The notes under the pieces: model-generated
Database searches by the model: none
What the model saw: only the letters and a program-made list of their open reading frames with translations
What the model was told of the DNA's origin: nothing
In this document: positions 12,811-16,414 of the stretch, in pieces
Numbering within the stretch: the stretch's first letter is position 1
Layout: each line of letters begins with the position of its first letter
From: Chloroflexota bacterium
GTDB taxonomy: Bacteria > Chloroflexota > Dehalococcoidia > Lucifugimonadales > Lucifugimonadaceae
Length of the DNA: 64,000 nt
Assembly: GCA_027624075.1 (NCBI GenBank)
Contig: JAQBUH010000013.1
Coordinates: 1-64,000, forward strand
Reading direction: 5' to 3'
Translations under genes and position numbers: made by a program

Positions 12811-14190
12811 TCATGAAACCCCGAGGTCGCTCTCAAGCTGGGTCAGAGCATCATCCAGAGCATTCACTATGAAGTCTATCTCATCAGCGGTGATCGAAAG
12901 CGGCGGGCAGAGAGATATTACGTCTCCGGCGCGGAAGCTAACTATCTTTCGGTCATAAAGCATCTTCGGCAACCTCTTCGCAAGGCCCGCACTCGCTGGG
13001 AACGCCGTCTTGTTCTGCCTGTCCTGCACCAGTTCGACCGCCGCCAGCAGCCCCAGGCCGCCGCGGACATCTCCCACAATCTGGTGGTCGTACAGCCTCT
13101 GCAGTTGATCGAACAGGTAGTCACCCATACGACGGGAGTTGCCTACAAGGTCTTCTTTCTCGAATATCTTCAGGTTGGCGAGCGCCGCTGCCGCGGCCAC
13201 CGGATGACCGCCAAACGTGATCAGGTGACGGAAGGTCTGCTCTGCCCCTCCGACGAACGAGTCGGCGATGCGCTTGGTCGCAATCGCGGCGCCAAGCGGC
13301 GCGTATCCGCTGGTGAGCGCCTTGGCGACTGCCGTGATGTCCGGCTGGACACCCCAGTTCGATGGAGCGAAGTACTCGCCTGTGCGGCCAAAACCGGTGA
13401 TCACCTCATCGGCAATGAGCACTACACCGTACTTGTCTGCAATCTCGCGAAGCCGCTGCCAGTACTCGGCGGGCGGGATGTGGATGCCCGCCGCCGCAGA
13501 GACAGGCTCGGCGATCATAGCTGCCACGGTTGAAGGGCCGTTGTGAACGATGACCGTCTCGAACTCGTTGGCGCACTTGACCGCGACGTCTACAGGGTCG
13601 CCATCGAACGGCATGCGGTAAGAGTTCCAGTTCGTGACGTGGATGGCGCCGGGCATCTCAGGACCCGCGGGGTCCGCCGCCGGGCTCCGGCCCAGGCTGA
13701 CGGCCATCGCCGTCCCGCCGTGGTACGAGTAGCGCCGTGATATGACCTTGAACGCGCCCGCCTTGCCGTTCAACTGCTGGTGCTTCTTCGCCATCTTCAC
13801 CGCTGTCTCAACCGCCTCCGACCCGCCGGAGACGAAGAAGACCCGCGCTCCGTGGTCTGGATAGAGCTCTGCCACTTTGGCGGCAAGTTCGATCTGCGAG
13901 ACGGTGGACGAGCCGGCCGGCGGGGACTCAATGCCCATCAACTGCTGGTACATGGCGTCTGCGATCTCACGCCTGCCGTATCCCGCGGCCTTGTACCAGA
14001 GTCCGCCCATGGCGTCGATGAGACGGTTGCCCTCAATGTCCTCGACCCAGACGCCTTCGCCCTTCTCGAATATCTTCAGCGACCCGCGCCAGTCGTTGGT
14101 CTGGGCCGCGTGCATGAAGAGGTGCTCGCCAGCCATCTGCTGGAGCTCCTCTAACCGCTCGCCTGAAACTGTCTGCGTAGTGGAGGTCAT
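12811..14190 (-). CDS. class III (omega) aminotransferase, PLP-dependent
   Basis: A 459-residue fold-type I transaminase. The PLP lysine is Lys290 (AVAKALTSGYAPLGA). Asp261 in IADEVITGFGRTG contacts the pyridine nitrogen. SGGSEAVETAVKMA (121-134) binds phosphate. Sequence style matches the subgroup acting on taurine, beta-alanine, putrescine or other omega-amines with pyruvate or 2-oxoglutarate, but the donor cannot be fixed. It is cytoplasmic and monocistronic, upstream of the opp ATPases on the same strand with 191 bp between them. A link to peptide or amine uptake is only a guess. Confidence 0.88.
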   Translation of the reverse strand: MTSTTQTVSGERLEELQQMAGEHLFMHAAQTNDWRGSLKIFEKGEGVWVEDIEGNRLIDAMGGLWYKAAGYGRREIADAMYQQLMGIESPPAGSSTVSQIELAAKVAELYPDHGARVFFVSGGSEAVETAVKMAKKHQQLNGKAGAFKVISRRYSYHGGTAMAVSLGRSPAADPAGPEMPGAIHVTNWNSYRMPFDGDPVDVAVKCANEFETVIVHNGPSTVAAMIAEPVSAAAGIHIPPAEYWQRLREIADKYGVVLIADEVITGFGRTGEYFAPSNWGVQPDITAVAKALTSGYAPLGAAIATKRIADSFVGGAEQTFRHLITFGGHPVAAAAALANLKIFEKEDLVGNSRRMGDYLFDQLQRLYDHQIVGDVRGGLGLLAAVELVQDRQNKTAFPASAGLAKRLPKMLYDRKIVSFRAGDVISLCPPLSITADEIDFIVNALDDALTQLESDLGVS

Positions 14191-14481: not shown

Positions 14482-14490
14482 TGGTATACT
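14482..14490 (+). promoter_or_regulatory. extended -10 promoter of the cys leader
   Basis: TGGTATACT matches an extended -10 (TGn plus TATACT). A start point about 7 nt downstream falls at 14495-14498, on top of the leader-peptide start codons (GTG 14495, ATG 14498). The leader may therefore be translated from a leaderless or nearly leaderless transcript. Confidence 0.6.
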
Positions 14491-14497
14491 CCGCGTG

Positions 14498-14569
14498 ATG
14501 AACGGATCCACTATTTGCCGCAACTGCGCCTGTACTTGCCGCTCCACATTCTCGGAGGGGTTCTCCTAA
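14498..14569 (+). CDS. cysteine-rich attenuation leader peptide of the cys operon
   Basis: A 23-codon ORF, ATG at 14498 to TAA at 14567-14569, with an in-frame GTG directly before the ATG. Four of 23 residues are Cys, at positions 7, 10, 12 and 14 (TGC, TGC, TGT, TGC). It lies just downstream of an extended -10 and upstream of an intrinsic terminator and the sulfate-assimilation genes whose end product is cysteine. This is the layout of ribosome-mediated attenuation. When Cys-tRNA is scarce the ribosome would stall at 14516-14539 and leave 14556-14562 free. When cysteine is plentiful it reaches the stop codon and covers that segment. Cysteine-codon leaders are known in actinobacteria; here the role is inferred from arrangement. 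No Shine-Dalgarno is present. Confidence 0.75.
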   Translation: MNGSTICRNCACTCRSTFSEGFS

Positions 14570-14597
14570 CGGCGCGAAACAGTTGATGTTCATCCGA

Positions 14598-14630
14598 CCC
14601 CTGCGAGCAGCGTCTCTGCAGGGGTTTTTT
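14598..14630 (+). terminator. attenuator terminator upstream of cysH
   Basis: CCCCTGC (14598-14604) pairs with GCAGGGG (14618-14624), followed by six T (14625-14630). An alternative pairing competes: AGGGGTT (14556-14562), inside the end of the leader ORF, pairs with GACCCCT (14596-14602), which removes the 5' arm of the terminator. A third small hairpin, GGAG/CTCC (14554-14557, 14563-14566), would block the antiterminator. The terminator ends 56 nt before the first possible cysH start. Confidence 0.85.
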
Positions 14631-14685
14631 GTGCCTCCGGCAATTGTGCCAATTACTTACCGGCAGGTTGAAGTAAAAGCAGAGG

Positions 14686-15435
14686 GTGATGATGACAGGT
14701 GATCGACAGAGGTTCTCAGAACAGGAACTTGCCGGCCTGAACGGACAGTTCGAGAACACGGGTCCCGAAGATGTCCTCCGCTGGGTGGACAAGACGTTCG
14801 GTCACGGCGCTGTGCAGATGTCCAGCTTCGGGCTGGAGGACGTGGCGCTCTACGACATGTACTGGCGGATCAATGCGAAAGCGCGGGTGATGACCCTCGA
14901 CACGCTGCGACTGCCGACCGAAACCTACACTCTGTTCGACCAGTTTCAACTCCGTTATCGCGTCGAGATCGAAACGCAGTACCCGGACCTTGAGGCGGTG
15001 AAGGCGATGATTAAAGAGAAGGGGTTCAACCTCTTCTTCAAGGGTGTTCAGAACCGCAAGCAGTGCTGCGGCGTCCGCAAGGTTGATCCGCTGAACAGGG
15101 CACTGGCGCGAGTTGACGCATGGGTGACGGGTCTGCGACGGGACCAGGGCATGGAACGCGGCGGCATCGACATCGTGGAGTGGGACGAGCCGCACGGGAA
15201 CTACAAGGTGAACCCTCTTGCGAACTGGAGTTTCGAAGAGGTGCGGGAGTACGTAACGGCGAACAGCGTTCCGTACAACGAGTTGCATGATCGCGGCTAC
15301 CCGAGTCTTGGCTGCGCGCCGTGCACCCGGGCTATCGAGCCTGACGAGGATATCCGGGCAGGACGTTGGTGGTGGGAGAGCGACCCTGACGCCAAAGAGT
15401 GCGGCCTGCACGTGGTTGAGGCGGCGTCCCGATGA
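14686..15435 (+). CDS. cysH: assimilatory adenylyl-sulfate (APS/PAPS) reductase
   Basis: About 249 residues; the start is one of GTG 14686, ATG 14689 or ATG 14692, just after AGAGGG. It reduces activated sulfate to sulfite with thioredoxin or glutathione as donor, in the cytoplasm. The two cysteine pairs that bind a [4Fe-4S] cluster in APS reductases are present: Cys127-Cys128 in KQCCGVRK and Cys210/Cys213 in GCAPC. The catalytic cysteine is Cys239 in ECGLH. With no APS kinase gene in the operon, direct use of APS is the simpler reading. It is first of three genes with cysD and cysN and is apparently controlled by the cysteine attenuator upstream. Confidence 0.93.
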   Translation: MMMTGDRQRFSEQELAGLNGQFENTGPEDVLRWVDKTFGHGAVQMSSFGLEDVALYDMYWRINAKARVMTLDTLRLPTETYTLFDQFQLRYRVEIETQYPDLEAVKAMIKEKGFNLFFKGVQNRKQCCGVRKVDPLNRALARVDAWVTGLRRDQGMERGGIDIVEWDEPHGNYKVNPLANWSFEEVREYVTANSVPYNELHDRGYPSLGCAPCTRAIEPDEDIRAGRWWWESDPDAKECGLHVVEAASR

Positions 15436-15472: not shown

Positions 15473-16414
15473 ATGAGCATCCAGCCAGTTCCGACTTCCA
15501 GCAGGACGACTCGCACAGAGCTTGCGGAACTCAACGCCCTCGAGTCCGAGTCTATCCACATCATCCGGGAGGTGATAGCGGAGTTCGACCGTCCGGCTCT
15601 CCTTTTTTCTGGCGGCAAAGACTCGATCGTCATGCTGCACCTGGCCATTAAGGCTGTGCGCCCGGCGATTCTCCCCTTCCCCATCGTCCACATCGACACA
15701 GGCCACAACTTCCCCGAGGCGATCGAATACAGGGACCGGACCGTTGAGAAACTCGGCATTCAACTCGTGGTCGGCTCTGTGCAGGAGGCGCTCGACACAG
15801 GCCGCATAGCTCAGAGCACCGATCCCGGCGGCTCCCGGAACAGGCTCCAGACGCCCGTGCTGCTTGATGTGATTCGTAAGAACAAGTTCGGCGCTGTGTT
15901 CGGCGGCGCACGCAGAGATGAGGAGCGGGCGCGTGCAAAAGAGCGCGTCTACTCCTTCCGCGATGAGTTCGGGCAGTGGGACCCGAAGAACCAGCGTCCA
16001 GAGGTCTGGAACCTGTACAACGGCTTTATCAACTCCGGACAGCACATACGCGTCTTCCCTCTCTCCAACTGGACCGAACTTGACATCTGGCGCTACATCG
16101 CCGCACAGAAACTGGAGATCCCATCCATCTACTTCGCACACGAGCGTGAGGTGTTCGAGCGGGACGGCATGTACATGGCTGTCTCGCCGTTCCTGCAACC
16201 GGAGCCGCATGAAACGGCGCAGACCATGTCTGTGCGGTTCAGGACAGTTGGGGACATGACGAGCACCGCCGCGGTCCCGTCGAAGGCCGCCACAATCGAA
16301 GAGGTGGTCGCAGAGATCGGCGCGACACGCACCTCCGAGCGCGGGCAGTCGCGGGCAGACGACCGGGCCTCTGAGGCGGCGATGGAAGACCGCAAGCGTG
16401 AGGGCTATTTCTGA
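15473..16414 (+). CDS. cysD: sulfate adenylyltransferase small subunit
   Basis: A 313-residue ATP pyrophosphatase-type enzyme that makes APS from ATP and sulfate together with CysN. The PP-motif SGGKDS is at 46-51, and family stretches GGARRDEERARAKER and FPLSNWTELDIWRYI follow. The ATG at 15473 is chosen because the product aligns with the usual CysD length of about 300. The open frame reaches back to 15287, inside cysH, but that part is not CysD-like. It lies 37 bp after cysH and overlaps cysN by one base (TGATG), so translation is coupled. Confidence 0.95.
   Translation: MSIQPVPTSSRTTRTELAELNALESESIHIIREVIAEFDRPALLFSGGKDSIVMLHLAIKAVRPAILPFPIVHIDTGHNFPEAIEYRDRTVEKLGIQLVVGSVQEALDTGRIAQSTDPGGSRNRLQTPVLLDVIRKNKFGAVFGGARRDEERARAKERVYSFRDEFGQWDPKNQRPEVWNLYNGFINSGQHIRVFPLSNWTELDIWRYIAAQKLEIPSIYFAHEREVFERDGMYMAVSPFLQPEPHETAQTMSVRFRTVGDMTSTAAVPSKAATIEEVVAEIGATRTSERGQSRADDRASEAAMEDRKREGYF

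Follow-up and report, generated by a model that had tools for sequence, protein, structure and literature searches.

A near-leaderless cysteine-codon leader and intrinsic terminator upstream of cysHDN as a probable transcription attenuator in Dehalococcoidia (Chloroflexota)

Does the short open reading frame (ORF) rich in cysteine codons that lies, together with an intrinsic terminator, ahead of cysH, cysD and cysN allow translating ribosomes to control sulfate assimilation by sensing cysteine? The locus lies in a 64,000-nt stretch of DNA (the window, meaning this whole stretch) drawn from a 2.3 Mb MAG of a marine, SAR202-type member of the Chloroflexota. A first-pass annotation had described a 23-codon ORF with Cys at positions 7, 10, 12 and 14, a CCCCTGC/GCAGGGG hairpin with six T residues in front of cysH-cysD-cysN, and an AGGGGTT stretch able to pair with GACCCCT. 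We recovered all of these, reading the ORF at 14498–14569, the hairpin and its T run at 14598–14630, and the complementary segments at 14556–14562 and 14596–14602; cysH, cysD and cysN were assigned by NCBIfam. From the evidence below, we consider it very probable that the locus carries a ribosome-mediated, cysteine-responsive transcription attenuator at cysHDN, and we judge this attenuator to be part of a putative clade-wide cysteine regulon. The features are as follows:

12811–14190, divergent from the leader: class-III aminotransferase gene, the 5′ neighbour
14485–14490, + strand: −10 element TATACT of the putative leader promoter, with a weak −35; position conserved in relatives
14498–14569, + strand: leader ORF MNGSTICRNCACTCRSTFSEGFS, apparently leaderless or nearly so; from the sequence and relatives
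14541–14557, + strand: possible small competing hairpin CTCC/GGAG, between the Cys codons and the antiterminator; from folding only
14556–14562, + strand: predicted antiterminator strand AGGGGTT, within the last leader codons; from folding and duplex energies
14596–14604, + strand: shared strand GACCCCTGC, both terminator 5′ arm and predicted antiterminator partner; from scans, duplex energies and folding
14597–14630, + strand: intrinsic terminator hairpin and U run; from the sequence, a scan and folding
14692–15435, + strand: cysH, (phospho)adenylyl-sulfate reductase; NF002537, 263.8 bits against a cut-off of 154
15476–16414, + strand: cysD, sulfate adenylyltransferase small subunit; NF003587, TIGR02039
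16414–17691, + strand: cysN, sulfate adenylyltransferase large subunit; TIGR02034

Along the + strand, the TATACT box is followed after 7 nt by the ATG at 14498, the 23 codons of the leader (Cys codons beginning at 14516, 14525, 14531 and 14537), a TAA stop at 14567–14569, 27 nt of spacer, and the terminator, which reads ACCCCTGC-loop-GCAGGGGT and six T. The aminotransferase was ruled out as the owner of this terminator because its gene is divergent. Some 60 nt separate the end of the terminator from the cysH start (14689 or 14692), and the hairpin does not contain the cysH ribosome binding site. The hairpin at 14597–14630 was missed by a generic terminator scan, probably because its loop is longer than the 8 that the scan allows, and folding energies calculated from the window by itself were unexceptional (z between −1.6 and +0.8).

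We searched for this arrangement in relatives, which belong to the Dehalococcoidia of the phylum Chloroflexota and include one SAR202 cluster MAG; the order sampled within this class likewise includes SAR202 MAGs. A strict scan of both strands at 113 cysH loci, which required a −10 box, a start codon 3–11 nt downstream, clustered Cys codons and an intrinsic terminator, returned 39 distinct leaders, every one of them before a cys operon, while the reversed-sequence control returned 0. A relaxed scan added 13 leaders, again with a control of 0. In the host's own order, 37 of 70 sampled cysH loci carried the promoter, the near-leaderless Cys ORF and the terminator under the strict settings (control 0), and the relaxed total came to 47 of 70 once 8 leaders from the relaxed scan and 2 recognized by eye or pattern (L013 and L065, with the weak L051 left out) were counted. 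Other orders of the class yielded leaders at 0 of 7 cysH loci and 0 of 6 sir loci scanned, and in the rest of the phylum we found three complete examples (L101, L120 and L235), a weak one (L104), and a Cys leader without a terminator (L226). The leaders are, in short, concentrated in the host's order. Pattern matches at L143 and six homologues were rejected as an SRP RNA gene, judged by sequence, and that at L144 as coding DNA.

Within the order, 23 of the 70 cysH loci and 33 of the 70 sir (sulfite reductase) loci yielded no leader, perhaps in part because another gene opens the operon or because the scans reach their limits. The cysH leader was absent from L009, L010, L012 and L029, and at L018 and L019 the promoter and terminator were kept upstream of cysH while all Cys codons were gone, an apparent loss of sensing. 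At these named loci the pattern looks like lineage loss and not like a refutation of the attenuator.

One point absent from the first-pass annotation is the position of the start codon. Since the ATG sits only 7 nt past the TATACT box, the leader mRNA is predicted to be leaderless or nearly so. The same spacing recurs in relatives: among 64 leaders whose promoter was strong, 59 had the start 5–11 nt past the −10 hexamer, and a Shine-Dalgarno-like motif was present in only 1 of 87 leaders. Longer 5′ parts, of about 18–36 nt, occur in families L011, L071–L074, L076 and L078. A TA-rich signal about 10 bp ahead of the start is regarded as marking leaderless genes, a few of which have been reported from Chloroflexi (PMC3160421). 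Starts of this type would seem to suit such a sensor, since a ribosome could set to work on the nascent RNA without delay.

AGGGGTT at 14556–14562 is complementary to GACCCCT at 14596–14602, and their pairing excludes the terminator. Whole-leader MAFFT alignments had so many gaps at the terminator arm that we used neither column-by-column counts of pairs nor a covariance model, and assessed covariation through duplex energies: the sequence following each leader's last Cys codon was paired with its own 5′ terminator arm and with arms swapped between leaders. In the cysH set, the mean was −16.5 kcal/mol for own pairs against −14.0 kcal/mol for swapped ones, and 0 of 10,000 permutations reached the own-pair mean (p < 1e-4); keeping a single leader for each genus or family (n = 23) gave p < 5e-5. 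The sir leaders gave p < 5e-5 (n = 48) and, thinned, p = 3.5e-4 (n = 27). Examples of such own pairs are AGGGGCC/GGCCCCT (L055), GGAGAGGG/CCCTCTCC (L049) and CGCTCGGGGG/CCCCTCGAGCG (L061). Relatives upstream of cysH thus keep the clustered Cys codons, the terminator and the antiterminator while the arms change together. In both sets the antiterminator lay 0–18 nt past the last Cys codon, often overlapping the stop codon; in most sir leaders it shares bases with the stop codon or comes immediately after it, commonly as TAG-GGGC, from which we infer that the terminating ribosome itself would mask the antiterminator strand there.

Folding of both alternative pairings was in keeping with this arrangement. 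With a ribosome placed at Cys14, the antiterminator helix reached a probability of 0.99–1.00 in nascent RNA exposed to 14603–14620, and with the ribosome at Cys7 it appeared once 14612 was exposed; a ribosome at the stop codon covered the antiterminator strand, which left the terminator as the sole possible structure. At full length, equilibrium favoured the terminator even when the ribosome sat at Cys7 (−33.4 kcal/mol, against −24.4 kcal/mol for the antiterminator form just before). According to these models the switch must therefore be kinetic, acting before the 3′ arm emerges, which is when attenuators are generally assumed to decide.

The mechanism that we infer begins with RNA polymerase starting no more than a few bases from the leader ATG, so that a ribosome would load directly at the 5′ end. 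When Cys-tRNA is scarce, the ribosome would stall in the Cys codon cluster (14516–14539), leaving AGGGGTT free to pair with GACCCCT as soon as the latter has emerged; no terminator would form, and cysHDN would be transcribed. When cysteine is plentiful, the ribosome would reach the stop codon and cover AGGGGTT, and transcription would end near 14630. The downstream genes cysH, cysD and cysN, plus the unlinked sir, belong to the pathway of the amino acid that would be sensed.

If ribosomes sense the cysteine supply in this way, other cysteine genes should have leaders of their own. We located the unlinked sir of the same genome by Pfam PF01077, using no feature of the leader, and found a second Cys leader, MRNRPVKKIIRLCCGT (L147, G000:C57, start 34727), whose start precedes the gene by 198 bases. 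A TAGAAT box stands 10 nt ahead of the leader ATG, and a terminator, GGACCCCGC...GCGGGGTC-TTTTG, follows the leader. This independent prediction held, and across the order a Cys leader and terminator stood at 37 of 70 sampled sir loci (control 0). An independent copy at sir would allow co-regulation without a protein regulator. The proposal of ribosome-mediated attenuation by Cys codons made in the first-pass annotation thus gains support from conservation in relatives, covariation of the arms, the order of folding and the sir prediction.

Of the other explanations, the one that survives best, though we consider it improbable, is translational attenuation in the mycobacterial style, in which a ribosome stalled at the Cys codons would prevent the cysH ribosome binding site from being sequestered. 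Polycysteine leaderless short ORFs are reported to act on translation in this manner in mycobacteria (Canestrari 2020, 10.1111/mmi.14498, as cited in passages of PMC9031893 and PMC13236596), and the distant relative L226, which belongs to another class, has a Cys leader before sir with no T-run hairpin and may act on translation. At the cysH leader, however, the conserved hairpin and its terminal U run lie well upstream of the start codon, with the binding site outside them, and a hairpin with a U run accompanies nearly all leaders found, although the scans required both. As far as those passages describe them, the mycobacterial attenuators resemble the present leaders in placing a leaderless Cys-codon leader before cysteine-metabolism operons, in serving several operons per genome and in using ribosome stalling as the signal; they differ in acting on the translation of the next gene, whereas the conserved intrinsic terminator and covarying antiterminator here point to transcription. 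They also belong to a different phylum, and the leaders are too short to show homology, with few examples from other Chloroflexota classes (L101, L120, L226 and L235) to bridge the two.

We think it very unlikely that the product of the ORF is a small Cys-rich protein that acts independently, for instance in metal or thiol binding, while the terminator merely tunes basal expression. Recurrent CxC and CC motifs would fit such a protein, but the length (11–38 aa), the spacing and every non-Cys residue vary freely between relatives, the C-terminal codons follow base pairing with the terminator arm, and the ORF is placed before sulfur-assimilation operons. Cysteine makes up 16.4% of residues over 87 leaders (4 of 23 codons in MNGSTICRNCACTCRSTFSEGFS), written as 183 TGT and 110 TGC codons. 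Free variation of the peptides outside their Cys residues, together with the use of both Cys codons, argues for sensing of codons and against an arrest peptide.

Less credible still is a metabolite riboswitch or T-box governing the terminator, with the Cys codons incidental. Terminators in 5′ leaders are typical of riboswitches, and Cys T-boxes exist in Firmicutes; against this, the leader is only about 130 nt long and mostly ORF, the alignments show no conserved aptamer, and an Rfam search of the leader found no family match at either the gathering or a permissive threshold. Chance association of a random Cys-containing ORF with an ordinary terminator has a negligible claim: the bare promoter, RTG and CysXCys pattern is not significant by itself in a single genome, because it gave 1 match in the whole 2.3 Mb (the cysH leader site) against 3 for the backward control, but dozens of genomes repeat the arrangement ahead of cysH and sir while reversed controls gave 0, which already refutes this reading.

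With ribosome-mediated transcription attenuation as the preferred reading, the principle is a known one. Like the trp, his and leu attenuators, the locus combines regulatory codons, an intrinsic terminator and a competing antiterminator, and would sense the pathway product; unlike them, it would sense cysteine, has no Shine-Dalgarno sequence and a near-leaderless start, and belongs to a kind of leader that is often so compact that the ribosome reaching the stop codon would itself mask the antiterminator strand. Cys leaders have been predicted in Mycobacterium, Propionibacterium and Bifidobacterium as short Cys-run ORFs before cys operons or cbs, where no conserved terminators were found (PMC1262725), whereas the terminator is conserved here. 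The first-pass annotation knew of no such leader in this kind of organism, and we likewise found none for Chloroflexi, Chloroflexota or SAR202 in a literature search that covered few subscription papers; within that scope, Cys codons coupled to an intrinsic terminator appear undescribed in Chloroflexota. What appears to be new is the combination of trp-type attenuation with Cys codons, a near-leaderless start and an intrinsic terminator, at several operons of one clade. It would extend leader-peptide attenuation of sulfur assimilation to a large, mostly uncultured marine lineage. Cysteine-codon sensing, for which Actinobacteria showed no terminator, would then also exist in another phylum as a switch built on one, and SAR202 relatives would gain a cysteine regulon concrete enough to be tested. 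A wider reading, which we regard as possible but on the whole doubtful, is that leaderless Cys leaders run an order-wide cysteine regulon (cysHDN, sir, TauE-type permeases, sometimes with serial attenuators) through stalling alone, and that the mycobacterial translational leaders are another output form of one old design, of which terminator and non-terminator versions stand side by side in Chloroflexota.

Cys leaders also precede TauE-type permeases, at L082 (judged by sequence) and L140. At L078 (approximately 2640–2980), two complete Cys attenuators stand in series before a TauE-like permease, the first with HCACTCC and a terminator and the second with CSCMCCCTC and a terminator. On the reverse strand of L075 (approximately 1600–1750), the first attenuator is followed by another short ORF, which contains about nine Cys codons, lacks a clear terminator and is possibly a translational leader. 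An orphan Cys leader and terminator at L142 (G128:C1 near 779263, minus strand) are followed by just a 40-aa ORF, in the genome whose cysH locus (L009) has no leader. Finally, the regulon may have further members at L139, where a Cys leader precedes an ABC transporter whose binding protein is of the PBP_like_2 type, and at L145, where one precedes a 181-aa protein of unassigned role.
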